NCBI RefSeq assembly: GCF_010747475.1
Contig: NZ_VSLZ01000011.1
Span: forward strand, 1 to 49,082
DNA: 49,082 nucleotides
DNA from: Halorussus sp. MSC15.2
GTDB taxonomy: Archaea > Halobacteriota > Halobacteria > Halobacteriales > Haladaptataceae
Direction of reading: 5' to 3'
Shown: piece by piece, positions 16,946-45,405 of the stretch
Layout: every line of letters starts with the position of its first letter
How positions within the stretch are numbered: position 1 is the stretch's first letter
Program-made: the position numbers and the translations under genes
Notes under the pieces: model-generated
What the model saw: only the letters and a program-made list of their open reading frames with translations
The model's database searches: none
Told to the model about the DNA's origin: nothing

Positions 16946-19900
16946 CTCTCAGCGACGACGCTTCGGCCGCGGACTACCGACTGGCGGCGATTGCCGCGCT
17001 CCAGCAGGCCGACTTCGACGGTCCCGGCCGGTCGGCCCAGCGCCACCGCACTGCCGCGCTCAAAGCCCTCAACAAGTCCCTCCAGTACGTCCTCGACGCG
17101 AACCGCACTACGTCGGCGGTCCTCTTCGAACACGACAAGAAGGCCAGCACTCCACCGCAGTTCGCACCGAACGTCACGAAACTGCTGGTCCGTTCTGACG
17201 AACAACTCACCACGACTGCCATTGCGGACGCCGAGCGCGTCCGCGAGACGCTCCGCGCCCGCAACGTTTCGTTCAACGAATCAGCGGTCGCAGAGAACAT
17301 CAGTACCGCCAAAGCCGCGGTCGAGCGCGCCGAGCGATTCCGCAATCGCGGCCAGCACCACACTGCGATCACCCAATATCGGGTCGCGTGGATTCACGCC
17401 CAGCAGGCGCTGGACATACTAGACCTCGCCACGACTCCGAACGTTACGATCACTACCCGCGAAGACATGCCTTACGAGGCGAACACCACCTACGAACTCC
17501 GTGGTCGGGTGTTCGACGTGCGGGGCCACGAACTCACCGCGGTCGTCTCGCTGAACGGCGCGAACCGGACGCTCGTGCTTGACGTGAACGCCACGCCCGA
17601 GACGACCCCCGGCGCGGTCGCTACCTTCCAGACGAATCTTACCCTCTCGAAGCAGGTCAACGTCATCGAGGTCCATGCGACCGACCCGAACCGGCGGTGG
17701 GCACCCGACTCTTCAGACGTGAACGCGACGACTGGACGAGACGTGCTCCGCCTTGACGGCGACGGCCTCCCCGACACCTACGAGCAGAACGTCGTCGGCA
17801 CCGACCCGCTGGACCCCGACAGCAACGCGACACGGACCGCCCAGAACGAATCTTCGAACAACATCACCGATGGCGTGGAGGATCTCGATGGCGACGGCGA
17901 AACCATCTACGAAGCATATCGATTCAACCTCGACCCGCTTGACAACGATACTGACGCCGACCGTCTGCTTGACGGCTTCGAGTTACAGGTCCAAGGTATC
18001 GATCCTGTAAGCAATGATACCGACACCGATTCGGTCTTGGACGCCGCGGAGGACCTCGACAACGACACGCTGTCGAACTACCGTGAACAGAACACGAGTA
18101 CAAATCCAGTTCGAGCGGACACCGATATTGACGGTCTGAACGACTCGGAAGAACTGGCGAACGGAACGGATCCCCTTGCGCCCGATACTGACTCTGATGG
18201 ACTGCCCGACCCCGACGAGTACGAGGTCGGAACGGACCCGACTGTGGCCGACACCGACGGGAATGGGGTGCTGGACGGCAACGAGACGTTCTCGACCGAG
18301 ACGAAAAATGAGACGGTCGGCGCGGCGGTCAATATCTCGGGCAAAGGCAACGTGGCCGACACAGTCACCATCCAGAACGAGACCAACGAAAACCTCAAGT
18401 CTGGCCCTGTACGAAATGCTTCAGCTTCTGAAATCCTACATTTCGAGGCCGAAAGCGAGTTCGAGAGCGCGAACCTCTCTATCGACTACAACGAGAAGCA
18501 AGTCAGTGATGAACGCGAGCTTGCGGTCTACACCTATAATCGGATGCTCCAGACGTACGTGAAACTCCCGTCGACAGTCGATAGTGCGAACAACACGGTG
18601 ACAGGAACGACGCCCCACTTCTCCACATTTACCGTCTTGAACGAGAGCCAGTGGGAGAGACAGAAACAGGTCGACCCACGACCCAAGTACGTCATTAACG
18701 AGAGCTTCAAAAACTTGGACGATTGGAACTGTACCGGCGACTGTGACGGCGGTAACGGCGTGGTCGTTGGTGCTGGCTCAGATAGTAGCCAATCGTTCGA
18801 CGCGTCTGGCATCAATGCACCGACACAGGCAGATGGCTCAGACTCGTTTACGGATGAAAATGAATCATCTACGCGTTCACTCTATCAAGCCATTCAAGAT
18901 TCGAAGACGGGGACCGGACGGATTGGAACTGAAAAGTTCTGTGAGCCTACAGAGCCGAACTGTAGTAACCCGATTCCAACGTCGACAACAACAACGACGA
19001 CGAAGGATCCGTCGGACCCACCAACTGGAACGTCGATTCCGGGCCGAGGGGGCGGTGAACCGATTCCGCCATCGAAGCTCACTCGATCGGTCGAGCTTCC
19101 GACTGATTCATCGGAGATTGTAGTTAATGCCTCGTTCGAGGGATCTGCAAAAGAACGGAATGCGACTGCCCAAGTTCTGCTAATCACGGACTCAGACAAG
19201 TACACCGTATTCGACGTTGACGGTAAGGATGGTGAGTGGGTTAGTAAATCTAAATCTATCGAGAAGGACCTAACTCATGCCGCGGGAGAGACTCTGACTG
19301 TCCGAATTTTAGCGCTGAACATGTCGAATATCGAAGTAGAGTACTTCGATGTCGAGATTACTCGGGATAGCGACGGCGACGGCCTCTCGAACTCAATCGA
19401 GCAACTCGGTATCCTGACTGGCAATCAAGACCGTGTTCATACAGACCCGTACGACACTGATACGGATGGAGATGGCCTAACGGACGGCGAAGAAGTCGGT
19501 CAGAAGGTCGACAGCGAAGAGGTCGAACGTGACTACTATTTGCTGAACAGTAACCCGGCCAAAGTTGATTCCGATGGGGATGGACTTGACGACTACGAGG
19601 AAACGAACGAAAAATGGACTGTCAGATACACGAAGTCGAGCGAGGATTCGAAGGCATTCCTTGCAGCCCTTTACGACGACAATAGTGACCCGGGGAACCA
19701 TCTTACGCCGCGGACAGCCCACCCCGATCCGATACTGGCAGACTCCGACGACGACGGGATTCGAGATGGGAATGAACTCGAACTCGGAACTGACCCATCG
19801 CGGGCGGACACCGACGACGATGGGATTCCCGACAACGATGAACTTGACTACGATACCGATCCGACGCTTCACGACTATGAAGGGCCGGAAATCAGTATCC

Positions 19901-20916
19901 TACAGGCGATTTTCGAGACGACCGCCAACCCACCCGAGACGACGTATCGAATCGGGTATAGTGCGAGTGACCCAAGCGGTGTAACGAGAGTCCAATACGT
20001 CAAGGAAGGCGAGACGAAGATAGATTCCACGTTCTCGGATGCACCAGATGGTGTGAGTGGAACGAGAGAGTTCACGACTGGTCCTGTCGAATCAATCGAC
20101 AGTGCACTCGGTGGGACGACCGTTGACGTGAAGGCGACCGACGGCAACGACAATAGCCGGCAAGTCGTCGCACTGGAGCGCACGAACTTCTACGGGGAAG
20201 TTGCAGACGAACTCGGCTCGGACGACATCTACGCGAAGAAGGTTGCAGACGACCTCGGCTATCTCTCTGGTTTCTCGACGGGCGCAGGTAGCACCGTCGA
20301 AATGGTGAGGGCCGTCGCCGAGAACTCGTTCAGTTTCCTCGATTCTATTACGCAGGTCGTCACCATCCTCCGAAATCTCGGACTTCTTGACGACCTCATC
20401 AAGGCTTTCCCGAAGCAAATTGAGGAGAACCAGAAGCGCAACAATCCCTACGATGAGGATACGGAAGCAGAATTGTACACGGAGTACCGCGTGGCCTGGT
20501 ACGGGGGGTATATTTCTTACACGCTCGTTTCGATGGTGGTCGGCGGTCAGGCGACGAAAGCCGCGAAGAGCACCAAGACGTTCGGGAAAATCGTCGATAC
20601 ACTTGACCGGAACGGTCGGTTGAGGACGGCGAGTAAGTATCTAGATACGGTCGAAGACCGGACGACTGGGAAAGCAAAACGGGTGACATTCAAGTTGGGC
20701 GCGAGGGCTGCAAAGGGTAGCGTACACTTGAGCAGAAAGAGTGGACGGCGGGTTCTGTCAGGCGTGAAAACGGCGAGTGTGAAATACGACGTTCGTCAGA
20801 AACTTAGTAATGCGGAAGGTGGCACACTCTCGAAATTCAACCGGTACAACGAAAGGGTTCAGGAGAAACTCGGCCAAGTTCTTGTACGTAGCGACAGTCC
20901 AAAAAAAGGTCGGTGA
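16672..20916 (+). CDS. Polymorphic toxin, main TSP3-repeat body
   Basis: This is the continuation of the gene starting at 16319 after the one-base shift. The frame is open from 16672 although the first in-frame ATG is only at 17467 (MPYEANTTYELRGRVFDV), inside a domain, so 17467 is not a natural start. Order: collagen-like GPPEDPGPP stretch; helical region to about 17,440; beta domain; TSP type 3 calcium-binding repeats (DxDxDGLxDxxE, for example DTDSDGLPDPDEYEVGTDP) at about 17,750-18,290; glycosylated linker; beta-sandwich; second TSP3 block at about 19,370-19,870; Ig-like domain; then a hydrophobic/glycine pre-toxin region (GGYISYTLVSMVVGGQATKA) and basic helix. It terminates at TGA 20914-20916 right after an A7 tract, cutting it off from the toxin domain. 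TSP3-containing toxins are known in haloarchaeal conflict systems. Confidence 0.8.
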   Translation, partial: PPGNKTQGPPGNKTRGPPEDPGPPDNKTQGPPEDPGPPEDRGPPEDRGGGPPEERGPPEWAQNPETPPSVEHNRSALANKSRPLANASVNVTLSDDASAADYRLAAIAALQQADFDGPGRSAQRHRTAALKALNKSLQYVLDANRTTSAVLFEHDKKASTPPQFAPNVTKLLVRSDEQLTTTAIADAERVRETLRARNVSFNESAVAENISTAKAAVERAERFRNRGQHHTAITQYRVAWIHAQQALDILDLATTPNVTITTREDMPYEANTTYELRGRVFDVRGHELTAVVSLNGANRTLVLDVNATPETTPGAVATFQTNLTLSKQVNVIEVHATDPNRRWAPDSSDVNATTGRDVLRLDGDGLPDTYEQNVVGTDPLDPDSNATRTAQNESSNNITDGVEDLDGDGETIYEAYRFNLDPLDNDTDADRLLDGFELQVQGIDPVSNDTDTDSVLDAAEDLDNDTLSNYREQNTSTNPVRADTDIDGLNDSEELANGTDPLAPDTDSDGLPDPDEYEVGTDPTVADTDGNGVLDGNETFSTETKNETVGAAVNISGKGNVADTVTIQNETNENLKSGPVRNASASEILHFEAESEFESANLSIDYNEKQVSDERELAVYTYNRMLQTYVKLPSTVDSANNTVTGTTPHFSTFTVLNESQWERQKQVDPRPKYVINESFKNLDDWNCTGDCDGGNGVVVGAGSDSSQSFDASGINAPTQADGSDSFTDENESSTRSLYQAIQDSKTGTGRIGTEKFCEPTEPNCSNPIPTSTTTTTTKDPSDPPTGTSIPGRGGGEPIPPSKLTRSVELPTDSSEIVVNASFEGSAKERNATAQVLLITDSDKYTVFDVDGKDGEWVSKSKSIEKDLTHAAGETLTVRILALNMSNIEVEYFDVEITRDSDGDGLSNSIEQLGILTGNQDRVHTDPYDTDTDGDGLTDGEEVGQKVDSEEVERDYYLLNSNPAKVDSDGDGLDDYEETNEKWTVRYTKSSEDSKAFLAALYDDNSDPGNHLTPRTAHPDPILADSDDDGIRDGNELELGTDPSRADTDDDGIPDNDELDYDTDPTLHDYEGPEISILQAIFETTANPPETTYRIGYSASDPSGVTRVQYVKEGETKIDSTFSDAPDGVSGTREFTTGPVESIDSALGGTTVDVKATDGNDNSRQVVALERTNFYGEVADELGSDDIYAKKVADDLGYLSGFSTGAGSTVEMVRAVAENSFSFLDSITQVVTILRNLGLLDDLIKAFPKQIEENQKRNNPYDEDTEAELYTEYRVAWYGGYISYTLVSMVVGGQATKAAKSTKTFGKIVDTLDRNGRLRTASKYLDTVEDRTTGKAKRVTFKLGARAAKGSVHLSRKSGRRVLSGVKTASVKYDVRQKLSNAEGGTLSKFNRYNERVQEKLGQVLVRSDSPKKGR
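20901..20907 (+). other. A7 homopolymer at the body/toxin junction
   Basis: Seven adenines. The zero frame reads CCA AAA AAA GGT CGG TGA and stops. With one A fewer (or a +1 shift) it reads CCA AAA AAG GTC GGT GAC and runs on into the toxin domain to 21628. A-tracts of this length are prone to polymerase or transcriptional slippage, and also to sequencing error. Confidence 0.7.
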
Positions 20917-29063: not shown

Positions 29064-29912
29064 TCAGATGACCAACCGTCCACCCTCGAGATCGAATCCA
29101 TCGAAGCCATCGACACTCCGCTCGGCAGCCCGCTCTTCGAGTTCCTCAAGGTCGACACCTCTTGAACGACCGCTTTTCGATTTCTCGAGGCCGGTTGAAT
29201 CCAACAGGACATCCATCATCCCTCCGAGGGCGATGGACCATCCCCGTTTCTCTGCATGGTCAAGGACCGGATGGGCGTCTGGTGCAACCTTCGAACTGCG
29301 TGGAGACTCCGACGGGTTCTCCTTGATATAGCCGCCGCCATGCTTCGGACAGGTTCCCAGATAGTCTACGTGGCGTTCACTCGGCACCTCACCGGCGAGC
29401 ACCTTCTCCTTGACCGTCTCGAAGTCATCCTGCAACCGCTGTGACCACGTCTCATCCGGTTCCCAGATATCGACCCAGACGACAGGGTAGTCGGCGCGGT
29501 CTTCGCCGACCACGTGAACGTACCAGATGATGAGCATCTTCGAGAGCTTCTTCCGGAGTGCGGGGACGTCCGTCCAATGGTCGGCCTCAGCGATGGCGTT
29601 ATAGTCGACCATGCTGAGGACGAGTCGCTCCTTCGGACGAACCAAATCATCGTCGCCGGTGAGCTTGAGCGGCGTCACCTTGAGCTCGATTCCTGCATCT
29701 GGGAAGTCCGGCTTCGGAGAACTGTTGATGGGAATCCCGAAGTAGCCCTCCTCGATGACATTAGCAGCACCGTGTTTCGACCGAGCGCGCTCGTCATCTG
29801 CCATCCCGAGGATGTCTTCGCTAATCTCCCCGAACGTCTCTCCTAAGAGTACCTTCGCGGCTTCGCTAATCTCTTCTTCTGTTGCATCTTGGCCGATAGG
29901 TTCGAAGTCCAT
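29064..29912 (-). CDS. MutH/Sau3AI-family restriction endonuclease 1
   Basis: A 282-residue protein starting MDFEPIGQDATEEEISEAAK. It carries the MutH/Sau3AI catalytic pattern D-x6-E-x-K at D69, E76, K78 (PDFPDAGIELKVTPLK), almost the same positions as D70, E77, K79 of E. coli MutH. Downstream lies VLSMVDYNAIAEADHW and LSKMLIIWYVHVVG. It is paralogous to the protein at 33792 (shared start P-IG-x-DA-x-x-E-I-x-x-A-x-x-x-LLG-x-T-x-GEI). It ends the minus-strand unit downstream of methyltransferase 1, 124 bases away. Recognition sequence cannot be read from the sequence; Sau3AI-type enzymes often cut GATC-like sites. Confidence 0.8.
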   Translation of the reverse strand: MDFEPIGQDATEEEISEAAKVLLGETFGEISEDILGMADDERARSKHGAANVIEEGYFGIPINSSPKPDFPDAGIELKVTPLKLTGDDDLVRPKERLVLSMVDYNAIAEADHWTDVPALRKKLSKMLIIWYVHVVGEDRADYPVVWVDIWEPDETWSQRLQDDFETVKEKVLAGEVPSERHVDYLGTCPKHGGGYIKENPSESPRSSKVAPDAHPVLDHAEKRGWSIALGGMMDVLLDSTGLEKSKSGRSRGVDLEELEERAAERSVDGFDGFDLEGGRLVI

Positions 29913-30036: not shown

Positions 30037-31287
30037 TTATCCAGAATTCATCTGGGCGAAGGCGTGGGAGGTCTCCATCTCGGGGTCCTGGTTGAGCGTC
30101 CTCCCCATCTGCTCAATCAGCCCCACCACCAACGCGTTCCCCATGCAGGTATATCGCCAGTTCTCGGGCATTCCTGTGTCCGTCCATCCATCGGGGAAGT
30201 CCATGAGACGTTCGACCTCGATAGGGGTTAGGATACGGAGGTCGCCAGTCGCCGGGTCCTCAACGACGTGTTTCTCTCGTCCTGGCGAGGTCGTTCCTTC
30301 GCTGGTCAAGAGAGTCCGGGATGGGCGATCGAGCGGATCGGGGAACGGAATCGCCCCCTCGCTAAACGTGTACTCGTATCCCTCGTCGGTCACCCGTTCC
30401 TCCTCCTTCGAACCCTTCATGTACTCCCATCGTTCAATCTCATCCTCTGAGAGGTAGTACTTCTCAGGGACACCGCCAGTCTCGAGAACGTCACCGAGCG
30501 TCGTCTCCCACTCACTCTCAGGGTCGACATCCCGTGTCCAAACATCACCATCGACCATCGCACCGGACTTCTTGAAGTGGAACTCGAAGCTCTCGCTCGT
30601 CTCCTTCGGGTCACCGAGCAGGGAGGCGTCAGGGTTCCGCGCGACCGGGAACTGTTGTTGCTGGCGGTTGTCTACCGGAAACTCCCGGGGGAAGAACCCC
30701 CGACGGGTGAAGTAGTTCGGCTGGTCACCGTGTGATTCCAGCCAACCTCCCCACTCGGTGTCTCGACGCGCACCGAAGATGAAGACGCGTCGTCTTTTCG
30801 TCGGGTACCCGTAGTCGGCGGCGTTGATGACCCGCCATTCGACGTTGTAGCCGATATCGTGGAGGCAGTGAAGAAGAACACCGAAGTCGCGACCACGCTG
30901 TTCGGTCGGTGACCGAAGGAGTCGATTCACATTCTCCAGGAGGAGATACCGTGGGCGTTTCTGCCGCGCGATACGTTCTATATCCCACCAGAGCGCACCC
31001 TTCTCCCCTTCGATACCCTCCGCCCCGGTTTGGGCCACCGAGTAGTCCTGGCAGGGGAACCCACCGACCAGCAACTCATGGTCCGGGACCTCGGTCTCGT
31101 CAATCTCCTTGATGTCCACGTTGGTGTGGTTATCATCACCAAATTGACTGGCATAACAGTTGGAGGCGTGCTGGGCCTGGATGCTAGGCTCCCACTGGTT
31201 ACTCCAGATGACCTCGTGCCCAGCCTCCTCAAGTCCAAGTCGGAAACCCCCAACGCCAGCGAACAGTTCGACGACCTCAAGTCCCAT
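30037..31287 (-). CDS. dcm: DNA cytosine-5 methyltransferase 1
   Basis: ATG 31287 gives MGLEVVELFAGVGGFRLGLE, motif I of C5 methyltransferases. Motif IV is GGFPCQDYS (catalytic Cys about residue 82), motif VI is LLLENVNRLLRSP, motif VIII is GYPTKRRRVFIFG, motif IX is ILTPIEVERLMDFPDGWTD, and motif X is MGNALVVGLIEQMG. The upstream in-frame extension (to 31422) lacks motif support. About 416 residues, a normal length. It transfers methyl to cytosine at its target and protects host DNA from its partner nuclease. It pairs with the nuclease at 29064 on the same strand. The gene symbol follows family usage. Confidence 0.85.
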   Translation of the reverse strand: MGLEVVELFAGVGGFRLGLEEAGHEVIWSNQWEPSIQAQHASNCYASQFGDDNHTNVDIKEIDETEVPDHELLVGGFPCQDYSVAQTGAEGIEGEKGALWWDIERIARQKRPRYLLLENVNRLLRSPTEQRGRDFGVLLHCLHDIGYNVEWRVINAADYGYPTKRRRVFIFGARRDTEWGGWLESHGDQPNYFTRRGFFPREFPVDNRQQQQFPVARNPDASLLGDPKETSESFEFHFKKSGAMVDGDVWTRDVDPESEWETTLGDVLETGGVPEKYYLSEDEIERWEYMKGSKEEERVTDEGYEYTFSEGAIPFPDPLDRPSRTLLTSEGTTSPGREKHVVEDPATGDLRILTPIEVERLMDFPDGWTDTGMPENWRYTCMGNALVVGLIEQMGRTLNQDPEMETSHAFAQMNSG

Positions 31288-31289
31288 TC

Positions 31290-31640
31290 TGGATGGGCCA
31301 ATGTGAGACCGGGAATTGAATCTATCGCATTCTTCCACCAGGGTATCTGAAGCATGAACTGTTCCCCAATATGCCAATACAAGGCCATCTCCTCGAATTT
31401 CCGACGAGCGGCGTTGGTCCATGCTGTTAGTATACCTTCTACGGGGTCTTCGTGCTCACTCAGATGCGAAAACCAAAGCATCTCGTCCGAGATAATTTGG
31501 TCAACCCGGCGCTTTGACCTATCGCGACGAAACTTCACCTTCTCTTTCAGTTCAGCCTGCTGCTGGCTGTACTCCGCATGTTCCTCGGCGTGGCACTTCG
31601 GCGGCAAGGAGTACTCTGCTGCAAACCCCTTTGTTCGGTC
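31290..31640 (-). pseudogene. Truncated coding remnant upstream of methyltransferase 1
   Basis: A minus-strand frame after a TAA reads NALDRTKGFAAEYSLPPKCH, HAEYSQQQAELKEKVKFRRD, RVDQIISDEMLWFSHLSEHE, EGILTAWTNAARRKFEEMAL and WHIGEQFMLQIPWWKNAIDS. The composition is clearly coding. There is no ATG near the beginning (a TTG at 31607 is possible), and downstream of about 31,285 the frame continues out of frame into methyltransferase 1, so the gene is probably a fragment of a larger lost one. No family recognised. Confidence 0.45.
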
Positions 31641-31840: not shown

Positions 31841-33721
31841 ATGTCCAAGTCCCTGACCGCGGTCGACCTCTTCTGTGGCGGCGGCGGATTGAGCGAAGGA
31901 TTTCGGCAAGCTGGTGTCGAGATAACACATGCGGTCGACATCGATGAAGGAGCCTGTGAGACCCACCGACTGAACCACCCTGAGACCGAGGTAATCGAAG
32001 CGGACGTCTGTGATATCGAACCCGAGGACCTCCCATCAGACATCGACCTCCTCATCGGTTCTCCGCCCTGCAGTGAGTTCTCGTGGGCCAAGCAAGGCGG
32101 TGGTGGTGACATCGATGAAGGGATGCGGCTGGTCAAACGGTTCCTCTACTTCGTTGCGGAACTTGACCCTGATTACTGGGTCATGGAGAACGTTCCCCGA
32201 CTGGATAACTATCTGCCGGAACACGTCGAATACGCTGATATCCCGTGGCTCGACCGTGAGGGCTCGCTCGACCTCGAGAAGCACATCCTCGACGGTGATG
32301 ACTACGGAACCCCGCAGCGACGTAGCCGTCTGTTCTCCGGCCAGTTCCCGTGTCCCGAGCCATCCGACGAACCAGTCTTCAGCTTCGGTGAAATTCGCGA
32401 GCACTTCCCGCGTCCCACGGACAGTCCAGCCCCCGAGAGTACCATCACTGACCCGAACTACGACATCGAACTCCAGGAGAACGAACTGACCGACCATTTC
32501 TACAACAGCCACGTCACGAACCGCGAGGCGGAAGAGATTCGACGCCGGAAGGAAGACCACTCCTTCTACGGCAAGATGAGCTTCCCGGACGACCCGGATG
32601 TCCCCTCGCGGACTGTGTTAGCAACAAATCGTCGTGTTGCACGCGAGACGCTGGTGATGGAAGAAGAGACCGCACCGGATGGGTTGAGCAGATTCCGTAA
32701 GCCGACGATTCGAGAGATTGCGACCATCCAGGGGTTCCCGATTACGTACCAGTTCACGGGTACTTCGCAAGCCCAGAAATGGCGACGAGTCGGTGATGCC
32801 GTCCCACCCACCATGGCCTTCCATCTCGCCCAGGCCATCCAACGGGATGCAGGAGTCGATGTGGCCGAGCAACCGGAGGTCAGCCAGGAATGCCCACCTA
32901 TCGAGACGAACCTGAACGACCGTGACACATCCTGGAAGGGACGTCGCAGTCTGAGTATCGCCCGAAACTTCCGCCATCACGTCCCGCTCGACAACAAGCA
33001 AGCGTTCCGTGTCGACGTTGAAACGGACAAAGACGCCACCCCAGAACGGCCGACTGCAGCCGATATAGATGACGCTGTTGCGCATCCTGTCGAATACGGC
33101 GTCATCTTGTATCGCGGATATTCGAGTGACGTTGTCTCGAAACCGATTTCTCTCCCAGAGGCGACGGAGTTCGTCGAGTCGATGGTCAGCCAGCACCCCG
33201 ACCTCGCCGCCCAAGTTGCCTCGTGCCTCGACGGATTCGTCACAGAACTCGGGCCAAATATTCCAGATTGCACCACCCTACAGGCGATTCGATCGCGACG
33301 CCATGAACGCGATGAGCCGTTAGAATTTGACCTGCTATCGACTATCTCCGCCTACGATGGATCTGGCGTTGTCGATTCCGCATTCCCGAAGGACGAGTAC
33401 GAATCTGTGACGGTGTCGCTGCCGGAGGTGTTCGATGGGACCGACCTTCCGGTTCGTGTTCTCATGAAGACAGTCGGAGCGGCCTACCTTTCGGTGAAGC
33501 TCAACCATTGTGCGAAGTGGCTTCGCACGCATCCTGAGGACGCGTACCTCTCGGATGAGGACGCGATTACTGCGGCAGCGTTCGAGTCCGCGCCCTGCCG
33601 ATTCGACGATTCGAGAGTCGCTGAAAGTAACGATTACGACTGCGTTGACGAATGGGTGGACGACCAACTACAATCGATGGTGATGCAGGCTGGCGGGAAG
33701 ATTCCAGCAGAAAGCGATTAA
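31841..33721 (+). CDS. DNA cytosine-5 methyltransferase 2 with long C-terminal extension
   Basis: A 626-residue protein starting MSKSLTAVDLFCGGGGLSEG (motif I), motif IV GSPPCSEFSWAK (Cys 77), motif VI ENVPRLDN, motif VIII QRRSRLFSGQFPC, motif IX KPTIREIATIQGFP and motif X GDAVPPTMAFHLAQA. Residues 1-340 are a complete methyltransferase. The last 280 residues (SLSIARNFRHHVPLDNKQAF, VEYGVILYRGYSSDVVSKPI, ESVTVSLPEVFDGTDLPVRV) are not part of the usual family and lack a recognised domain. TATA-like TCTTTATCA lies about 29 bases upstream. Convergent with the second MutH-type nuclease, its presumed partner. Confidence 0.85.
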   Translation: MSKSLTAVDLFCGGGGLSEGFRQAGVEITHAVDIDEGACETHRLNHPETEVIEADVCDIEPEDLPSDIDLLIGSPPCSEFSWAKQGGGGDIDEGMRLVKRFLYFVAELDPDYWVMENVPRLDNYLPEHVEYADIPWLDREGSLDLEKHILDGDDYGTPQRRSRLFSGQFPCPEPSDEPVFSFGEIREHFPRPTDSPAPESTITDPNYDIELQENELTDHFYNSHVTNREAEEIRRRKEDHSFYGKMSFPDDPDVPSRTVLATNRRVARETLVMEEETAPDGLSRFRKPTIREIATIQGFPITYQFTGTSQAQKWRRVGDAVPPTMAFHLAQAIQRDAGVDVAEQPEVSQECPPIETNLNDRDTSWKGRRSLSIARNFRHHVPLDNKQAFRVDVETDKDATPERPTAADIDDAVAHPVEYGVILYRGYSSDVVSKPISLPEATEFVESMVSQHPDLAAQVASCLDGFVTELGPNIPDCTTLQAIRSRRHERDEPLEFDLLSTISAYDGSGVVDSAFPKDEYESVTVSLPEVFDGTDLPVRVLMKTVGAAYLSVKLNHCAKWLRTHPEDAYLSDEDAITAAAFESAPCRFDDSRVAESNDYDCVDEWVDDQLQSMVMQAGGKIPAESD

Positions 33722-33791: not shown

Positions 33792-34649
33792 TTACTTCTC
33801 TGAGAAGTCGTTCAGTTCGGCCTGCGTTGGGGCGGTGTCGTCCGGTAGGAAGGCTTCGATTGGTGCAGAATCTTCAGCGCGTTCCCGAGCACGCTCCCAG
33901 AGAGCTTCTCTTTCGACCTTCTCTGAGCGTCCGTAGTCGACGGTGTCGATACCAGCGGAATCGGCAAGCATCTTAATCAAGAATCGGCATGGGATTCGCC
34001 AACTCCGTCGTTCCGGTTTCTCTAGATGTGGATGGCCGCTTGAGACCACAAAGGAACCGGGTTCCCGGTTTGCAAAGTCATAGTTATGCTTCGGGCACGT
34101 TTGGAGGATATCATTCCCCGCTTCTTCTTGGCTGAGGTCTTCTCCGTCGAGTATTTGTTGTCGGATAGCTTCATACTCTGCTTGGATTTGTTCGTCCAGT
34201 TCTTCCGATGGGGACCAGATTTGCCACCACACGAATGGGAAGTCATCTCGTTTGCCATCGTCGTGGACGAACCAGACGATGAGGAGGTTCAGGAATTTTC
34301 GCTGGAGTTTCTCGATATCTCGCCAGTGTTCTGTTTGTGCGACTTCCTCGTAGTCTATCATTCCGACGCTGAGCGGTTCCTTGGGATAGAAATAATCGTT
34401 GTAGGATATGTTGAGTGGTTTGCATTTGAGTTCGAGTTCAGCTTTTCGAAAGTCTGGTTCGGGGTCGTTGTCTAACTCCATCCCGTAGTAGGCTTCGAGC
34501 AGTTCTCCGAATTGGCCTTTTACTTTGACAGGGTCGACATCGGTGACGTCTGTTTGAGCGATTTCACCGGTGGTATGGCCGAGTAACGCGTTTGAGGCGC
34601 GTTCTATTTCGGCACGTGATGCGTCCCGGCCGATAGGGGTTGCGTCCAT
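33792..34649 (-). CDS. MutH/Sau3AI-family restriction endonuclease 2
   Basis: A 285-residue protein starting MDATPIGRDASRAEIERASN. The catalytic pattern is D66-x6-E73-x-K75 in PEPDFRKAELELKCKPLN, equivalent to MutH D70, E77, K79. Then follow LSVGMIDYEEVAQTEHWRDI and LQRKFLNLLIVWFVHDDGKR. It is a paralogue of the nuclease at 29064 (similar length, identical start pattern). It ends convergently with methyltransferase 2, 70 bases away. The two nucleases could be subunits of one heterodimeric enzyme or two separate systems. Confidence 0.8.
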   Translation of the reverse strand: MDATPIGRDASRAEIERASNALLGHTTGEIAQTDVTDVDPVKVKGQFGELLEAYYGMELDNDPEPDFRKAELELKCKPLNISYNDYFYPKEPLSVGMIDYEEVAQTEHWRDIEKLQRKFLNLLIVWFVHDDGKRDDFPFVWWQIWSPSEELDEQIQAEYEAIRQQILDGEDLSQEEAGNDILQTCPKHNYDFANREPGSFVVSSGHPHLEKPERRSWRIPCRFLIKMLADSAGIDTVDYGRSEKVEREALWERARERAEDSAPIEAFLPDDTAPTQAELNDFSEK

Positions 34650-35931: not shown

Positions 35932-38205
35932 CTAATCACTCAGCAATCGGGAGAAGAATCCACCGGAGCTGTCTTCGTCAGACGCGTCTTGTGCTTCGGC
36001 TGACGGTGCGGTGTCCATCCCGGTTTCATCGACACCGCTGAGTAGTTCGTCGACGGAGTACCCAATCCACTCGGCGAATTCCTCGGGAGCACCGATATAG
36101 ACGCTGCTCGAGGATTTTTCAGACATGAATCGCTTGGGTAGACGTTTCTCATAGTCGTATACTTCGTAGTCTTCGCGGTCGAAATTGGCGGTGATTGCGT
36201 TGGGTTCAGACTCGAATGTGACGCGACCGCCCTGTATGTCGCGCTGCCATTTCATCCGTCCCGTGTCGTATGTTTTCTCGGCGGGTTCCTCAGCGGGGAA
36301 GTACTCTGGTTGTTCTCGATTGGCTTTGTCGTAGAACTCGCGGAAGATACGGCGCACGTCCTCGATTGTCCCCGTTCCGTCAGTCCACGGTTCCTCGGTG
36401 AGCATCCGTCGGGCAACATAACTGAAGATTGGATTCTGTCGCTCCAACACATCCGAAAGGTCTTGTTGGGCTTCACGGAACCCTGGGTCCTCGGGGTTCG
36501 AGGGGAATGAGACGTCCATGCTCAGAATCTTCATGCGATTCCGGAATTCCGATTTTGGCAGTGCGTCGTTCGTGGTGAAAATCAAGCAGGGCTGGTCGAC
36601 GCTGGTCGGCGTCCAGTCACCCCAATAATTCCGGATTGGGCTCCATCGCTGGATTTTCTCCTTCTCCGCGTCGATGATTGCGTATGGGAAGCTTGTGTCC
36701 CATTCGCGGACGCCACGTACCTCCTTGACACCGACATCGTCTGCGTCAACCCCAGAAATAACCGTGTTGTCAGAGACGAGTCGGAGAATGTACTCGGTGA
36801 GTTTGTCCTTCCCGGCGTCACTCTTTCCTTCGATGTAGAGATGCTGGAGGACGTTATCGAGTGTCCGTGACGGCGACGACAATGACTCAGCGTACTGGTT
36901 GGCGAATGGAGCCCAAAATCCGTAGAGGAATGCTTCATACATCTGTGCCATCACCGCGGTCTCCGATTGGGTGTGGCCGTGGTCATCGACCGTCTGGATG
37001 TAGTCTTCGATGGTTTCCAGACAATGATTCAAGACTTCGGGTGTCGGTTCCTCAGTGGCGACCAGAATCATCTCATCGTCTTCGCCAATAACAATCTGTT
37101 CGGCTTCAGGAAGGACAGACATCGTTGGGATGGATGTCGATTCCTTGACTTGGGTGGTGTACGCGCTTAGTGGCGCGGTGATGCTGTGGTCTTCAACGGT
37201 CGCGCCGCGGTTTCGAAGACTCCTCCCGAATTCGTCAGCGGAATCTTTGTCCACCTTGCTTGTCCCCATTCGAATCTTCTCGTCAGGTGCTCGAACGCGC
37301 GGCCGGTCAAGCGTGTCCGTCAAATCCGTCTCGTGGTCTGATTCGACGAGTCCAACATCCGGCGACTCATCATCGTCTTCACTCTGGTCTGAGTCCTCGT
37401 TGGCTGTCGACTCACCAGGTTCAATGACGGTCCGGTTGGCATTCTCGGGATCTTCGACGAACGCGACCGTTTCATCGGCTTCGTCTGGATTATCAACGAC
37501 GGCGGTGACTTTGTCTGCGACATCTTTTAAATCCTCGACGGCATCCTGGTTCAAGGCGGCTGTGTCGCTCACGTCAAGGTCTCCCGCACCGACCCAGTAC
37601 TCGATTCGGTTCTCTCGCTCTTCCGGTGAGTCGGCCGCCTCAAGTGCTTCGACCAAGCCTTCTAGGAGTGTCTGGTCGCTGTATTCCTCGCGGTATTCAT
37701 CGATGAATCTCTTGAACTCTGTGTCTAGTTCTGTCCCGGTTTCGGTTGTGAAGACTGAAATCTGGTTTGTGTGGTAGTCCCAGGAGTTCCGTGAGAGATT
37801 CGCAGATCCCTGCACGAGCTTCACTGTATCGTCTGGCATTACGACACGGTAGATTTTCGAGTGGACTATCTTTCGATTCTTCAGTCGCACTGTCAGTCGG
37901 TCGTCTTGCCGGAGTTGCACTAGCGACCGAGCGGTTGAGACGGCATCGACTTGGTCGGCGTAGTCGTCAGCATTCCCGATGAGTACGTCTAATGACCCGA
38001 TATCGTAGTCGGTGAGCATCTTCACCATCAAATCGGGGGTTTCTGCGTACGTTACTGCGTCTACATGGCGGGCCCCTTCGAAGAGGTCGAGGAAATCGTC
38101 TCGGTCTTTCACCATCGCCAAACGGTATTTGGCTGCGCCCGATCCGTAGAATTCCGGCATGTCCGCGAATCTGTCGAATGAGATGTTCGCGGTCAGTTCA
38201 TCCAT
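35932..38205 (-). CDS. PLD-domain / P-loop fusion protein, 757 aa
   Basis: ATG 38205 gives MDELTANISFDRFADMPEFY. Residues about 25-150 form a phospholipase-D-like domain with one HxK motif (IVHSKIYRVV at 114-123, HSK at 115-117) followed by VQGSANLSRNSWD, as in PLD-family nucleases such as NgoFVII/Bfi-type enzymes. A central acidic linker separates it from a P-loop domain: GKSDAGKD (460-467) as Walker A-like, FPYAIIDAE (506-514), and LIFTTND (541-547) as the sensor-1-like strand, followed by basic R residues. The arrangement resembles superfamily-3-like viral/plasmid ATPases, but the fused combination is not one I recognise. The gene start overlaps the stop of a short upstream ORF (TATGGATGA). 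Confidence 0.7.
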   Translation of the reverse strand: MDELTANISFDRFADMPEFYGSGAAKYRLAMVKDRDDFLDLFEGARHVDAVTYAETPDLMVKMLTDYDIGSLDVLIGNADDYADQVDAVSTARSLVQLRQDDRLTVRLKNRKIVHSKIYRVVMPDDTVKLVQGSANLSRNSWDYHTNQISVFTTETGTELDTEFKRFIDEYREEYSDQTLLEGLVEALEAADSPEERENRIEYWVGAGDLDVSDTAALNQDAVEDLKDVADKVTAVVDNPDEADETVAFVEDPENANRTVIEPGESTANEDSDQSEDDDESPDVGLVESDHETDLTDTLDRPRVRAPDEKIRMGTSKVDKDSADEFGRSLRNRGATVEDHSITAPLSAYTTQVKESTSIPTMSVLPEAEQIVIGEDDEMILVATEEPTPEVLNHCLETIEDYIQTVDDHGHTQSETAVMAQMYEAFLYGFWAPFANQYAESLSSPSRTLDNVLQHLYIEGKSDAGKDKLTEYILRLVSDNTVISGVDADDVGVKEVRGVREWDTSFPYAIIDAEKEKIQRWSPIRNYWGDWTPTSVDQPCLIFTTNDALPKSEFRNRMKILSMDVSFPSNPEDPGFREAQQDLSDVLERQNPIFSYVARRMLTEEPWTDGTGTIEDVRRIFREFYDKANREQPEYFPAEEPAEKTYDTGRMKWQRDIQGGRVTFESEPNAITANFDREDYEVYDYEKRLPKRFMSEKSSSSVYIGAPEEFAEWIGYSVDELLSGVDETGMDTAPSAEAQDASDEDSSGGFFSRLLSD

Positions 38206-38416
38206 ACCACACCATATGAATAAATCCCAATAAATCCATCTGAAAGACAAGAGTGGTTCCTACGGGGTAGCCGTTGGCGAACAGGAGTTCGAGATATTCC
38301 AGTACTGACTCCGGGTTGGTGTCGAGTGGTGTGGCGGTTCCGGTTAGTGGGGTGAGTGTGACGTGGTTCTCACCGCCGACCGAGAGACGACCGTTCTCAC
38401 GGCCAAGCACACCCAT
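38198..38416 (-). CDS. Short ORF translationally overlapping the PLD gene
   Basis: A 72-codon frame, starting MGVLGRENGRLSVGGENHVT and ending LDLLGFIHMVWYG-like, whose TGA overlaps the ATG of the PLD-fusion gene. The segment ESVLEYLELLFANGYPVGTT is coding-like. It may be a leader peptide gene or the 3' relic of a lost gene. Evidence is weak. Confidence 0.3.
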   Translation of the reverse strand: MGVLGRENGRLSVGGENHVTLTPLTGTATPLDTNPESVLEYLELLFANGYPVGTTLVFQMDLLGFIHMVWYG

Positions 38417-38897
38417 AGACTTCAATCCTACCGATTCACTTCGACGCACCATTCTATTCCTACTTGAGGTGCGTTTCGCTCCCAGCCACAGACGCTGTTG
38501 GCGATGGCTTCTCCACGACCCCCATTCCCGTACAGTTTGTAAGGACAAGACACGAAACGGCGAACACCTCCTGACGGTACAACTCATGGAGGGTGGTATC
38601 CGCGGCGAGTAACCATGCTAACTCATCGATGGGTTAGCATAGCCACCACGACATGGTGTCAGCGACACCCCGACACTCCACCCAAAATACGCTCACAGGA
38701 TGTCGAGGATCTCAAAGTCTTCGAGGTTGATGCATTCCAGGAGAACAGCGAATTCATCGAGTTCTCGAAGCGTGTATCTCAATTTTTGTCTCGGCGGAAG
38801 GGAGAAGACTTTCGGGCGTATATTGTTGACGCCATGTCGGAGGACAACACCAGTGATTCAGCTGCTCCGCACGCTACTTGGGTTTCAAGAGAATCCG
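38417..38897. other. Gap with a possible relic and an inverted repeat
   Basis: This gap contains a perfect 8-base inverted repeat (ATGCTAAC...GTTAGCAT) at about 38,613-38,640. It also contains a plus-strand frame at 38,615-38,920 with coding-like content (EDLKVFEVDAFQENSEFIEF, SKRVSQFLSRRKGEDFRAYI) but no supporting start or context; this is probably a decayed gene fragment. The frame is convergent with the PD-(D/E)XK-like gene. Confidence 0.35.
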
Positions 38898-39800
38898 TCA
38901 CTGGATTCCGTTCTGGGTGACTGTGTAGGTTTCTTCGGCAAGTTGTTCGAGTTGTCGTCGGTACATGACGATGTTAATCGGTTCTTCGTTCTTCTGGCGT
39001 GGTGATGTGTAGTAGAAGTAGAAATCGGGGGCGTTCACGTCGGTTTTCCCGTAGTTGTTTCTGTTTCGGAGTTCAGTGGCTTTGTCGTTCGCTGTTGTTC
39101 TATCGAATCCTGCCGCGGCGAGGTAGTCTTGTAATGTGTCTCGGTCAACGAGCAGGCACTCTATCTCGTTGATGTGTTCAGCTTCGAATGCTCGGCGGTC
39201 GACCGTTCCACCAGACGTAATCCTTCCTGGGATAGATACGATGTTCGACTCGAAGGCATCGATACTTTCAGATGAGGCGTCGATTTCCACGCGTGGTCCA
39301 GGCAAATCATCATTATCTACATCGTCGTCGGCTCTGAGGCTGGCTTCATCCCGCCACATCACGCTGGTTGTATCACGAGGGAGAGCATCAGCGTCAATCT
39401 TGAGCTGTTTGTGGTCGCCTCGCTCGATGAGTATCTTCTCACCGTATCTTGTCTGCTTTCGCCTGAATGCGTAGACGTCCACCATCCAGATGAAGAGATA
39501 GTAATCGGTGTTCTTGTCTGGTTTGAATAACCATCCTTTGCGTTTTGTACCGTTCTGGATGGAGTCGATTTCGAGCGCGAATGTCGGGAGTGGGTTATTA
39601 AGATAGTCGGTCTGTGCCTTCTCGTCGATATGAATTTTAGACCCGATGCCGGGAATGGATGCGATGATGTCTGAGCCTTGCCGCTGTATATCTGTCTCCG
39701 TCTGCCGTTCTGTCCGCCAATCCAGATTCTCGTACAGATACTCATCGAGGAAGCGACCGACCTTCCGCTCATTCTTATGGTCGTAGTCTCGATTACTCAT
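38898..39800 (-). CDS. PD-(D/E)XK-like nuclease candidate, 300 aa
   Basis: A 300-residue protein starting MSNRDYDHKNERKVGRFLDE. Residues about 40-62 (QRQGSDIIASIPGIGSKIHI, then DEKAQTDYLN) have the layout of a PD-(D/E)XK active site: G-S-D-I followed about 14 residues later by D-E-K. Then follow TFALEIDSIQNGTKRKGWLF and DYYLFIWMVDVYAF. The middle contains an acidic linker and the C-terminus LAAAGFDRTTANDKATELRN may be a helical DNA-binding segment. It is on the same strand as the PLD fusion and may be functionally linked. Nuclease assignment is by motif. Confidence 0.6.
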   Translation of the reverse strand: MSNRDYDHKNERKVGRFLDEYLYENLDWRTERQTETDIQRQGSDIIASIPGIGSKIHIDEKAQTDYLNNPLPTFALEIDSIQNGTKRKGWLFKPDKNTDYYLFIWMVDVYAFRRKQTRYGEKILIERGDHKQLKIDADALPRDTTSVMWRDEASLRADDDVDNDDLPGPRVEIDASSESIDAFESNIVSIPGRITSGGTVDRRAFEAEHINEIECLLVDRDTLQDYLAAAGFDRTTANDKATELRNRNNYGKTDVNAPDFYFYYTSPRQKNEEPINIVMYRRQLEQLAEETYTVTQNGIQ

Positions 39801-41957: not shown

Positions 41958-43490
41958 TTAATCAAGGCCGTTTGGCGATTGGTCATCGGATTCAGCGAAC
42001 GGTCGTTCAGGAGTGTCGCCGAAGCCACTAATCTGTATCCCTGAGGGGGATGGATTAGCGATTTCATCCGAGTGACCGACAAAATACCCTAACTCGAAGT
42101 CCACCGATTCGAGGATATCAGGATCAGCCGCAATATAGTCGGCTGGTAATCTCCCTGCCCACTCGAGGTCGTCACCGAATTTAGCGTGAGCCCCGTATTC
42201 AAGAAGTTGCTCAAGCCCCTCCTTCAGATAGCTGTTCCCGGTGCTCCACTTGACTTCAGCGATGAACAATCCTTCAAGCCGGTATGTTTCTGCGTCTGCA
42301 TCAAGTTTCAGCAAGACGATGTCGGGTGTCTTCCGACCGAAGCTAGATTCAAAGACTGACTGACTTAGTCGATGTTTCTGTTCGTGGACTGCGTACTGTC
42401 GGCGTGCGAAACCATCGGGAGAGGGAGTCCCAAATGTAGAGGCTTGAATCTCTTCTAGGTCCCAGCTGATATCCAAGTAGTCGACGTAGCCGCGGTCGTC
42501 GTTCCAGTGATGCTGGCCGTCCCAGTCGTGGAACAAGAGATACTCCGACCCATCAGATTCCCAGGCGGCAACGATTTGGCCTCTTTCGTCGGTAATCTGC
42601 TTGAACTGCACGTCATCGAACTGGTCCAACAACTCGAAAATCCAGTACAATTCGAATAAGTCGGAGGTTCCACCGTCTTCAGGCGGGGCGAACAGATTCA
42701 ATCGGAGCAGGTTCTTAATCTCCTGGTTGTTGAGGTCTCCGTGACGGATTCGACGGTAGTTCCGGAGTAAGATTGCCGCCTCACTATATAAGGGGTCTCG
42801 TGACTGCTCTACTGCAGCGAGGTCGCGAGAATCGACTGCGGTGTCTCCTGTTGAGAGTTGGGATAGATAAACGTTGTTCAGTTTCGTTTGGAGGATTCGA
42901 CGAGGGCGTGACTCCGCTACTTCCCATGGCTTGAACCAGCCCAGTTTTGAATCATCGTTGGGGGCCATCTCCGTATCGAATCGGTCGAGAATCTCCGTGA
43001 TGGTCGAGAGGAGTTCGATAAGAACGCGGTTCTTTGCTGTGTCGACTGTTCGCTGGCGTGTCCGGCAAGCAAACCGTTGCCCGACAGTATCGCCGGTTGA
43101 CCAGCGATGCTCGATGGTCTTGTTCCAATCTATCGCGCCGCGAACCTCACCATCGAAGATTTCTATCTGCTTTCTCGTCGCCGGATCGACCGTGCGAAGT
43201 CTCGCCGGGAGTAACGAGACAAAATCGAGCACGCCGATTGGCTCGTCGTACCTATTTGTTATCCCACCAGTATCAGTCGCGGTGAGATTGAGATTGCTTC
43301 GATCTTCCGCGGGCGAGTCAATCTGCTCGCCAGTTAGAAGGAAATAGTATTCGAGGAGTTCCTGAAGGTTCTCAATCTCTATATTCGGGTCTGCTTCCTG
43401 AATCACCGGGTCAACAGAGACGTCCCCGATATATGTCGCGAGGAAATCCGCACTCGCTTCGACGAGTTCCTCGTGTTCCGGTTTACTCAT
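41958..43490 (-). CDS. mcrC: McrC-like nuclease subunit of a type IV restriction system
   Basis: A 510-residue protein starting MSKPEHEELVEASADFLATY. The C-terminal domain has the PD-(D/E)XK motif: RKTPDIVLLKLDADAE followed by LEGLFIAEVKWSTGNS (D...E-x-K). The N-terminal part (DFVSLLPARLRTVDPATRKQ, ERVRGAIDWN-like EVRGAIDWNKTIEHRW, NRVLIELLSTITEIL) resembles McrC. Its start overlaps the stop of the McrB-like gene (ATGA), so the two are translationally coupled. McrC supplies the nuclease recruited by the AAA+ partner to modified cytosine sites. Confidence 0.8.
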   Translation of the reverse strand: MSKPEHEELVEASADFLATYIGDVSVDPVIQEADPNIEIENLQELLEYYFLLTGEQIDSPAEDRSNLNLTATDTGGITNRYDEPIGVLDFVSLLPARLRTVDPATRKQIEIFDGEVRGAIDWNKTIEHRWSTGDTVGQRFACRTRQRTVDTAKNRVLIELLSTITEILDRFDTEMAPNDDSKLGWFKPWEVAESRPRRILQTKLNNVYLSQLSTGDTAVDSRDLAAVEQSRDPLYSEAAILLRNYRRIRHGDLNNQEIKNLLRLNLFAPPEDGGTSDLFELYWIFELLDQFDDVQFKQITDERGQIVAAWESDGSEYLLFHDWDGQHHWNDDRGYVDYLDISWDLEEIQASTFGTPSPDGFARRQYAVHEQKHRLSQSVFESSFGRKTPDIVLLKLDADAETYRLEGLFIAEVKWSTGNSYLKEGLEQLLEYGAHAKFGDDLEWAGRLPADYIAADPDILESVDFELGYFVGHSDEIANPSPSGIQISGFGDTPERPFAESDDQSPNGLD

Positions 43491-45373
43491 CCTTCGACCG
43501 AGACGTTCTGATACTCCTCGACGAACTGTGCAACTAACTCCCGGTCAAAACCATCGATATCGCTCGCCATTGTATTGAGCATCCCGTTGATTCGTCCTTC
43601 AGGAAGTCCTTCCAATTGAGGGACGATGTACATCCGGACTGGATAAGCATAGTCTATTTCTCCAGAATCCGTTTGGTTCTGAATGTGGCCCATGATGTCC
43701 TTGATGAGTGCAGGACCAATCTCCTTGTGTGGCTGCACTGCTTTCCACAGGTTCGTGATGTTCTGGATTGCATCGTCGTCGAAGTCGCACCCCCAGGTCT
43801 CCGCATAGTTCGAGACCAGTTCAGAAGAGATAGTGTCTGTGTCCGGGACGGGGACGGAAATGAATGCGAATCGCCGCATGAACGCGTAACTCATCTTGTA
43901 GAGGGAGGCTTTATCCTGGGTGTTCATCGTCGCAATCAGACGCCAGGAGTCCGGGATGTAGTAGTGTCGCGAAGTGAGTGGACGGTCGTCTGCTGAACTT
44001 GGGTCGCCCACGAGTACTATCGACCCATCGTCGTTCTCGAAGGGGAGTGTGACGGTGTTTTCGGTGAGTGCGGAGAGTAACGAGCCGAACGCTTTGTCGA
44101 TATCTGCCCGGTTCAGTTCGTCGATAATCAGCCATTCGTTCTTCGCGGCTGGTTCTGCTGGGTCGAGGAATCGCTGCAGGAACACTCCCGGCTTGAAATC
44201 GAGCGCGTCATCCTGCTCCCGGCTCGGCTGGTATCCGCCGATGGTGTGGAACGTAGACCAATCATCGGTCGCTGTTGCCAACTCGTACTCATCCCCAACG
44301 TAGTGGTCAGCGATTGCTTGCGCTATCTCAGTCTTCCCGGAACCAGGCGGCCCAGTCAAGATGATGTGCTTCCCACTTCGTAGAGCATCATCAATCTGAG
44401 CGGTGAGCGACCGATTGCCGACAAGCCCATCGGGGAAATATAAACTATCAAGCGATGCAACTTCGTTGGTTTCTTTTAGGGGGTTTGCTGGCTGAACCCA
44501 TTTCTGTGCTTTGGTGCTTTGCGAGCCCTTGCGTAGAATCTCTATTCTTTCCTCGAAATCAGCTTCAATCTGTTCAAGTGCGGGGTCAACCCTGCCTTTC
44601 TGGTAGCCTTCACCCTCGGCCGGGGTGTCCCAGATTTCACGGCCGCACTTACTCTGAACAGTATTCATTTCTATACCGTTTTCATTTGCAACTCTTTTCT
44701 GGGCTGTTAACCTACGTTCTCGCGTCGTATCTTCGTTCGTTTCGGTCAGGAACTTAGTAACGACAGCCCTGATTTGTTGCTCTCGACTGCTACTGCTCTT
44801 CCATTCCTCAGGAAAGTGCTGGTTGATGATGCTATCTATATCTCCCAAGACGAGATTATATTCCAGTGATTGCAGAATATCTCCAATATCATAGGATTCT
44901 TGTTCAAGACCATTCAGAAACGCTTTAAATCTCTCGTTCCCGTATTTAGTAACTGAGCCATTTGGGAAATTTTCAGAGGGAAGAGCCTCGACTATTTCTC
45001 CATTTGATGCAATTGGTACCCAATTTACTGGAATTCGATGGGTAGAGATATCAAGTTGTGATTCTGTTTTCTCGGTTGTGATTACCCTTTGGTTCAAGGA
45101 TTCGTAACCGGCGAGGGCAATTCCAATTCCGTACGTAAGGTATGAACCCTGATTTTTGGTTTGTGCGACTAGAATATCTCCTTCTTCTATCGATTCGGAA
45201 AACACCCTCCAGGAACTATTGCTGGTATCAGAATCACCTTCATAGGAGACGATACTGTGTCTTCTCCATATTCTCCAAAGATTATTTTCTCCCCAGTCGA
45301 TTTTATATACATCTCGATTCGAAAGAAGCCCGTTTATTTCTTCTTCAAATGTTTTAGTTGGTGAAGAAGGCAT
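43487..45373 (-). CDS. mcrB: McrB-like AAA+ motor with N-terminal reader domain
   Basis: The start is taken as ATG 45373 (MPSSPTKTFEEEINGLLSNR), because a TATA element at 45406-45416 would place the mRNA start near 45,385, downstream of the alternative ATG at 45397. N-terminal residues about 25-160 (DWGENNLWRIWRRHSIVSYE, IGIALAGYESLNQRVIT, HRIPVNWVPIAS) look like an EVE/PUA-type modified-base reader. The AAA+ domain has GPPGSGKTEIAQ (Walker A, near residue 341 in this frame), WLIIDELNRADIDKAFG (Walker B with the McrB-type LNRADID) and NTQDKASLYKMSYAFMRRF (sensor). It couples to the McrC subunit. Target specificity depends on the reader domain and cannot be read from sequence alone. Confidence 0.85.
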   Translation of the reverse strand: MPSSPTKTFEEEINGLLSNRDVYKIDWGENNLWRIWRRHSIVSYEGDSDTSNSSWRVFSESIEEGDILVAQTKNQGSYLTYGIGIALAGYESLNQRVITTEKTESQLDISTHRIPVNWVPIASNGEIVEALPSENFPNGSVTKYGNERFKAFLNGLEQESYDIGDILQSLEYNLVLGDIDSIINQHFPEEWKSSSSREQQIRAVVTKFLTETNEDTTRERRLTAQKRVANENGIEMNTVQSKCGREIWDTPAEGEGYQKGRVDPALEQIEADFEERIEILRKGSQSTKAQKWVQPANPLKETNEVASLDSLYFPDGLVGNRSLTAQIDDALRSGKHIILTGPPGSGKTEIAQAIADHYVGDEYELATATDDWSTFHTIGGYQPSREQDDALDFKPGVFLQRFLDPAEPAAKNEWLIIDELNRADIDKAFGSLLSALTENTVTLPFENDDGSIVLVGDPSSADDRPLTSRHYYIPDSWRLIATMNTQDKASLYKMSYAFMRRFAFISVPVPDTDTISSELVSNYAETWGCDFDDDAIQNITNLWKAVQPHKEIGPALIKDIMGHIQNQTDSGEIDYAYPVRMYIVPQLEGLPEGRINGMLNTMASDIDGFDRELVAQFVEEYQNVSVEG

Positions 45374-45405
45374 ACTGGGGTTCTCTTTTGAGTGCACATT
45401 AAACC

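Follow-up and report, generated by a model that had tools for sequence, protein, structure and literature searches.

Gene content of the locus

The window analyzed here, that is, the whole stretch of 49,082 nucleotides at positions 1 to 49,082 of contig NZ_VSLZ01000011.1 of Halorussus sp. MSC15.2 (assembly GCF_010747475.1), contains within an island of restriction genes a gene that fuses a PLD-type nuclease domain to a P-loop domain. Comparison with homologs strongly places this gene in the family of AgaP, the PLD protein of a published Argonaute (Ago)-linked haloarchaeal system, in a branch whose members nearly always lack an adjacent Ago gene. A preliminary description, made from the sequence and its list of open reading frames (ORFs), had joined the gene with a PD-(D/E)XK-like gene on the same strand into a two-nuclease system controlled by nucleoside triphosphate (NTP). 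Both ORFs exist on the strand and at the positions given there (Table 1), and the island is real as well, comprising two pairs of C5-methyltransferase and MutH-like genes and one pair of AAA_5 and nuclease-like genes.

The reported fusion is borne out: a single 757-residue ORF encodes both domains, and the motifs of the two domains, GKSDAGKD and LIFTTND among them, could be read back directly. The ORF list had begun this protein at a TTG codon, giving 772 residues, but homologs place the start at the ATG at 38205 (MDELTANISF...), with which the earlier residue numbers H115 and K117 agree. Pfam matches are weak and confined to the PLD part (PLDc_2, E value of 7.6e-5, under the curated cutoff; RE_NgoFVII, E value of 1e-3), but the PLD assignment is more than a chance match, since every catalytic position is kept in 71 homologs. 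No SF2 match in Pfam and no target-recognition domain were found in this protein; PADLOC, NCBIfam, and PHROGs gave nothing useful for the window proteins, and a PADLOC match to Avs2 (E value of 0.022 over 35 residues) was judged to be due to chance.

Table 1. Positions in the window of the PLD-AAA+ gene, its predicted domains and motifs, and nearby genes
Feature	Position	Strand	Basis or remark
757-aa PLD nuclease/predicted SF3-type AAA+ fusion, assigned to the Argonaute-free branch of the AgaP family, monocistronic	35932..38205	-	
PLD (HKD) nuclease domain, residues ~26-180, one HKD half-motif per chain	37666..38130	-	Pfam; fold matches NgoAVII R-protein, SauUSI, Nuc, BfiI
Catalytic HSK (H115, K117), equivalent to H105/K107 of N. 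pellirubrum AgaP	37855..37863	-	Motif read back from sequence
GSAN motif (G133, S134, N136), 21 residues from H115 to N136	37798..37809	-	Motif read back
Acidic linker, residues 226-307, low confidence	37285..37530	-	pLDDT <50 in full-length model
Predicted SF3/MCM-type AAA+ domain plus C-terminal small domain, residues 380-724	36034..37068	-	AF2 pLDDT 87.7
Walker A-like GKSDAGKD; K466 invariant, D467 replaces S/T	36805..36828	-	
Walker B-like FPYAIID: I511-D512; Ago-linked relatives have D511-D512	36670..36690	-	
Sensor-1-like LIFTTND (N546 invariant)	36565..36585	-	
300-aa PD-(D/E)XK-like protein, judged not part of the system	38898..39800	-	
C5-methyltransferase	30037-31422	-	Beside MutH-like endonuclease 29064-29912 (-)
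C5-methyltransferase	31841-33721	+	Beside MutH-like endonuclease 33792-34649 (-)

Structural models helped to define both halves of the protein. The full-length model had a predicted local distance difference test score (pLDDT) of 71, and its PLD part matched the NgoAVII R-protein, SauUSI, Nuc, and BfiI, the best Foldseek match being NgoAVII (4rct; E value of 4.5e-6). Sequence-profile searches gave nothing usable for the P-loop domain, and its lone PDB match below 0.001 was discarded as a 36-residue match to a designed protein. Modeled alone with AlphaFold2 (AF2), this domain reached the pLDDT listed in Table 1 and a predicted template modeling score of 0.88, and the model matched SCCmec Cch (Z score of 12.4 over 246 residues; root mean square deviation [rmsd] of 6.5), SaPIBov1 Rep (Z score of 11.6 over 194 residues; rmsd of 4.0), and MCM proteins (Z scores of ∼9 to 10), with generic AAA+ entries near 8. 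The modeled core includes the sensor asparagine N546 and the arginine R557, and at the level of fold the C-terminal domain is an AAA+ domain of the SF3/MCM kind.

The known PLD-NTPase defense enzymes SauUSI, NgoAVII/CglI, and PbeA have SF2-type motors (PMC7913695, PMC6459918); the window protein resembles them in its PLD domain only and differs in its ATPase, which rules out membership in any of these types. Like SauUSI (PMC7913695), it is a single chain with an N-terminal PLD nuclease, a linker, and an ATPase, and the PLD domains match with a Z score of 12.8, but SauUSI, a type IV restriction enzyme, carries an SF2 motor and an SRA target-recognition domain in place of the predicted SF3/MCM-type AAA+ domain. 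NgoAVII/CglI, which provide the closest PLD fold match, are also NTP-controlled PLD nucleases, but they are two-subunit restriction-modification (R-M) enzymes with a PLD R-subunit, an SF2 ATPase subunit, and a B3 recognition domain. PbeA of the haloarchaeal Dnd-Pbe system (PMC6459918) likewise fuses PLD to an NTPase in haloarchaeal defense and gave a weak PADLOC match (E value of 0.012), but that match spans the PLD part only, and PbeA has type III Res/DEAD-family helicase domains and works with PbeBCD and phosphorothioation. The SCCmec Cch and SaPI Rep helicases share the fold of the C-terminal domain but initiate the replication of mobile islands and carry no PLD domain.

Relationship to AgaP

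Remote relatives of the PLD protein are encoded in operons directly 3' of a prokaryotic Argonaute (pAgo) gene and are followed by a protein with a weak UvrD_C match, a PDDEXK_1 nuclease, and a UvrD-PDDEXK helicase, a context that led to the report of the haloarchaeal APAP system (long-A pAgo plus PLD; Cheng et al. 2024, PMC11442185), whose PLD protein is AgaP. According to that report, AgaP restricts plasmid and reduces rather than promotes plasmid maintenance; without its Ago it is toxic, in a manner dependent on H105, K107, and GSxN; these PLD residues are needed for both toxicity and plasmid loss; and the toxicity of lone AgaP was seen in Haloarcula hispanica, with Ago restraining it (PMC11442185). 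The gene at positions 9926 to 12079 of our locus L148, on N. pellirubrum pNATPE02, encodes H105, K107, E112, G119, S120, D122, G157, S158, and N160; because all nine published residues match (PMC11442185), we identify it as the tested AgaP.

The window protein aligns with N. pellirubrum AgaP at 30% identity over 722 columns, P-loop included, and the latter also has a P-loop (GESNGGKG ... FISND), although none of the terms ATPase, Walker, P-loop, AAA, or NTP occurs in the main text of PMC11442185. Both kinds of protein consist throughout of a PLD domain, an acidic linker, a P-loop/AAA+ domain, and a C-terminal domain, with 27 to 31% homology and the same catalytic H, K, G, S, and N, so that family membership is strongly indicated by sequence. 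Three differences set the window branch apart: it is without adjacent Ago, the spacing from the catalytic histidine to the asparagine is 21 rather than 55 residues, and the putative Mg-site carboxylate lies at position 467 rather than 511. The agaP-ago operon of the APAP system is accordingly not found at the window gene. AgaPs were described as having HxK and GSxN split by ∼50 residues (PMC11442185), and the tested AgaP has a 55-residue spacing from HxK to GSxN, but the long spacing is limited to sub-lineages (L148, L116, L123, and L130) and therefore does not define the family; the compact spacing occurs both in the window branch and in Ago-linked AgaPs such as L127.

The view that the fusion matches no known defense system was thus sound with respect to SF2-type PLD restriction enzymes and wrong with respect to AgaP: because this family has a published, tested member, the system is not wholly new. 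New here are the absence of Argonaute, the AAA+ module unreported in PMC11442185, and the altered nucleotide site.

Several other loci of the family were recorded. A strictly conserved operon of pAgo, PLD/AAA+, a 686-residue protein with a weak UvrD_C match, PDDEXK_1, and UvrD helicase-PDDEXK_1 is present in L048 to L051 and in named loci of the range L127 to L145, together with a divergent AAA_14/DUF4143 ATPase; it is a version of APAP with an apparent AddAB-type helicase-nuclease. L116 and L117 combine an N. pellirubrum-type AgaP (81%) with UvrD/PDDEXK genes, and no Argonaute was detected nearby. Long-branch PLD-AAA+ relatives with ∼40% identity to AgaP were found on contigs labeled bacterial (L114 and L140; a Bacteroidetes metagenome-assembled genome [MAG] and an unclassified bacterial MAG), possibly through transfer out of the haloarchaea or through misbinning.

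An Argonaute-free branch in defense islands

On a tree of 69 rows, which was built quickly, has flagged long branches, and is tentative in its deep groupings, the window protein falls in a branch of 36 rows with a support of 100, made up of 30 rows (the window and relatives at 75 to 89% identity) and six at ∼42%. No Ago gene is adjacent in 35 of these 36 rows, as checked with hidden Markov models, and adjacency to Ago switches five times or more across the tree as a whole. Searches of the window genome (4.4 Mb, 98% complete) gave no Piwi match, and no Ago was detected in 11 of the 17 carrier genomes tested. A Piwi search over 99 genomes at once missed the Agos of two genomes (G010 and G014), and Ago counts were therefore taken from a smaller search together with a full-length Ago profile. 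A profile built from six Agos matched a 113-residue N-terminal stretch elsewhere in the window genome (E value of 5e-4), which was rejected as an Ago because similar weak N-terminal matches occur in dozens of Ago-free genomes. Divergent haloarchaeal Agos with 25 to 29% identity to NpAgo and without an adjacent PLD gene were observed 8 to 31 kb from window-type PLD genes in L158 (2806-5442), L159 (64-2727), L161 (715-2895), and L162 (7182-9485).

Within the branch, nucleotide similarity between the relatives compared ends at the ORF boundaries and no same-strand neighbor recurs, which indicates that the PLD-AAA+ gene is its own transcription unit. Relatives are found on chromosomes and plasmids, in defense islands and not beside replication genes, and in 18 of the 29 named or plasmid contexts of the branch at least one gene for an N6-methyltransferase, Mre11-Rad50-NurA-HerA, Mrr, an AddA-like protein, or Ago lies no more than 10 kb away. 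A viral or phage origin was dismissed because neither 2.9 million viral contigs nor 50,697 phage records contained a relative, and very recent transfer of a single gene was dropped as an account of the whole branch (median dS, the synonymous divergence, of 1.3), with some cross-genus pairs being recent (dS of 0.02 to 0.19).

Two relatives outside the window genome are encoded with a cassette of DNA end-processing genes. In L047 (1310-10789, equivalent to the L135 region), Mre11-like, Rad50/SMC-like, NurA, HerA, and PLD-AAA+ genes form one operon without Ago, with gaps of -3, 0, 3, and 46 bp, and L046 (6142-19144) has a single operon in the order Ago-PLD-Mre11-Rad50-NurA-c27-HerA. The window genome has an ordinary chromosomal NurA only (C1:645801; E value of 1e-18) and none of the cassette type.

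Conservation and the nucleotide site

No variation occurs among the 71 proteins with data at residues H115, K117, G133, S134, N136, K466, D512, N546, and R557, and the ratio of nonsynonymous to synonymous substitution (omega), read at saturated dS, is ∼0.05 within the branch (median of 0.059), compared to 0.042 in Ago-linked AgaP. The PLD-AAA+ gene is under purifying selection.

The P-loop of the window protein is noncanonical, with aspartate where Walker A has serine or threonine, and the family as a whole departs from the canonical motifs of Walker A (GxxxxGK[ST]) and Walker B, with D or G but never S or T at position 467 and, in the window branch, I or S at position 511. The two positions covary without exception: the combination is D/I in 32 proteins of the branch, D/S in its six proteins at ∼42%, and G/D in the 33 others. 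In P-loop NTPases the serine or threonine of Walker A and the first acid of Walker B both serve the Mg ion. The simplest reading of these sequences is that the Mg-site carboxylate moved from Walker B (511) to Walker A (467) in the window branch, which would argue for a nucleotide site that was rebuilt and retained; since all 38 D467 proteins fall in one branch, this may have been a single evolutionary event.

Interpretation

We consider it probable that the window gene encodes a stand-alone, Argonaute-independent defense nuclease of the AgaP family in which the PLD domain is governed by the SF3/MCM-type AAA+ domain, an autonomous defense function being suggested by analogy with AgaP and by the island context. 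As suggested by the fold, the AAA+ domain would assemble, in the form of a ring or of a dimer, on extrachromosomal DNA that is invading or being actively replicated, and would sense or encircle it. Binding or hydrolysis of nucleotide at the noncanonical site might then release or position paired PLD half-sites, which would cut the DNA (nuclease dependence has been shown for the homolog AgaP), and general cellular or island-encoded nucleases could complete its destruction. In AgaP proper the adjacent Argonaute restrains and aims the nuclease, whereas here the AAA+ domain and linker would do so alone. We infer the DNA target, autonomous control, ring assembly, and an antiviral effect from these comparisons.

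A number of observations weigh against such autonomy. One branch member, on a Halobaculum litoreum plasmid (L103), has an Ago gene 139 bp downstream, and the remaining 6 of the 17 carrier genomes have an Ago 8 to 31 kb away (two pairs being near-identical loci), so that action in trans with Ago may occur in some hosts; after the duplicate locus was removed, the enrichment of Ago among carrier genomes was weak (P = 0.078). Other Ago-free lineages keep G467/D511, so the carboxylate swap follows the branch and not Ago loss in general. Given the toxicity of lone AgaP in Haloarcula hispanica, a free-standing copy would need another restraint, and the activity of the branch is itself predicted from sequence and from a homolog. 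Finally, branch members occur near the Mre11-Rad50-NurA-HerA cassette above expectation (5 of 12, versus 10 of 86; Fisher P = 0.018), and a partner may exist elsewhere that the window genome lacks.

These last points bear on an alternative that we regard as rather unlikely but of some weight, in which the PLD-AAA+ protein is a shared island module, inactive alone, that acts in trans with the Mre11-like/Rad50-like/NurA/HerA cassette or a nearby Argonaute by cutting DNA for subsequent resection by the partner. The cassette operons with Ago (L046) and without it (L047/L135), the more-than-chance proximity of solo-branch genes to cassettes, and the position of the Agos of all six carrier genomes within 8 to 31 kb of the PLD gene are what such a module would predict, and in some hosts the protein could plausibly cooperate with machines that process DNA ends. 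However, the window genome has neither a Piwi match nor a cassette-type NurA, 11 of 17 carriers are without Ago, and the clustering of defense genes in islands yields colocation without cooperation. A role outside defense, as a protein that joins a Rep-like SF3 helicase to a nicking PLD domain and serves to replicate or maintain a mobile element, has a small chance of being correct. The closest structural matches of the AAA+ domain (SCCmec Cch, SaPI Rep helicases, and SF3/MCM proteins) favor it, and the preliminary description had counted a P-loop of replication-protein type as evidence against its own proposal; the fold is indeed of that type, but this does not make the protein replicative, because AgaP, which lowers plasmid maintenance (PMC11442185), has the same PLD-AAA+ architecture. 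The lack of viral and phage relatives and the placement in defense islands away from replication genes argue in the same direction.

The chance is slightly smaller again that the gene is what remains, decayed or neutral, of an APAP system after the loss of its Ago: broken copies do exist in some genomes (G037, G068 C7, L106, and L107), but all catalytic positions are invariant in the branch and omega, at saturated dS, is low. Least probable, and in our view very improbable, is the original pairing with the PD-(D/E)XK-like neighbor. The two genes are codirectional, both nuclease-like, and 692 bp apart, the neighbor lying upstream with no shared operon, and its PD-(D/E)XK-like character was a fair reading, with E14, GxD47, and D58xK60 kept in three distant homologs. 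However, PLD relatives are present in 21 of 99 haloarchaeal genomes, the window's included, while the neighbor occurs in the window genome only, being absent from all 98 others (20 of which carry a PLD relative) and from all other loci around PLD-family genes (about 90), and its own relatives go with C5-methyltransferases: across the phylum it has two distant relatives, both of which immediately follow a C5-methyltransferase-like gene, and another lies in an R-M cluster of a Psychrobacillus plasmid. The conserved neighborhood expected for the pair is therefore refuted as a general rule, and rare co-occurrence was one of the outcomes that the preliminary description had itself counted as refuting its proposal. 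The neighbor, for which Pfam, PADLOC, NCBIfam, PHROGs, and PDB gave no noteworthy match, is most plausibly a rare restriction endonuclease-like gene and not a partner, and what persists of the NTP-controlled two-nuclease proposal is an NTPase-fused PLD nuclease with a connection to defense.

Beyond the stand-alone nuclease favored for the window gene, a wider proposal, to which we give an even chance, is that the AgaP family is built around a previously unreported AAA+ domain of the SF3/MCM type that controls a PLD nuclease, with Argonaute as an optional partner that has been exchanged repeatedly (for Mre11-Rad50-NurA-HerA or for no partner) and with the window branch as an autonomous one-gene defense nuclease whose ATPase center was rebuilt by the move of a carboxylate from Walker B to Walker A. 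If so, the published Ago-PLD system would need to be reread as one whose partner nuclease is itself an AAA+ machine, widespread without Argonaute, and the "split" AgaP active site as an insertion in a sub-lineage. How AgaP distinguishes the DNA of plasmids or viruses from chromosomal DNA, and what holds the nuclease in check, are questions that the APAP study did not settle and that the window branch would allow to be addressed directly; for both systems the AAA+ domain is an obvious candidate. The PLD nuclease would then be fused to a motor of the SF3/MCM type, whereas the PLD restriction enzymes known so far use SF2 motors.

Other genes in the window

The two MutH-like endonucleases listed in Table 1 are related to each other. 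At positions 41958 to 45397, an AAA_5 (McrB-like) ATPase gene overlaps that of a 510-residue protein with a D...EVK nuclease-like motif, and this pair recurs in L051 and L049, adjoining Ago operons. Positions 17467 to 20916 encode a 1,149-residue protein with TSP3 repeats (Pfam TSP3_bac), which is probably a surface protein.

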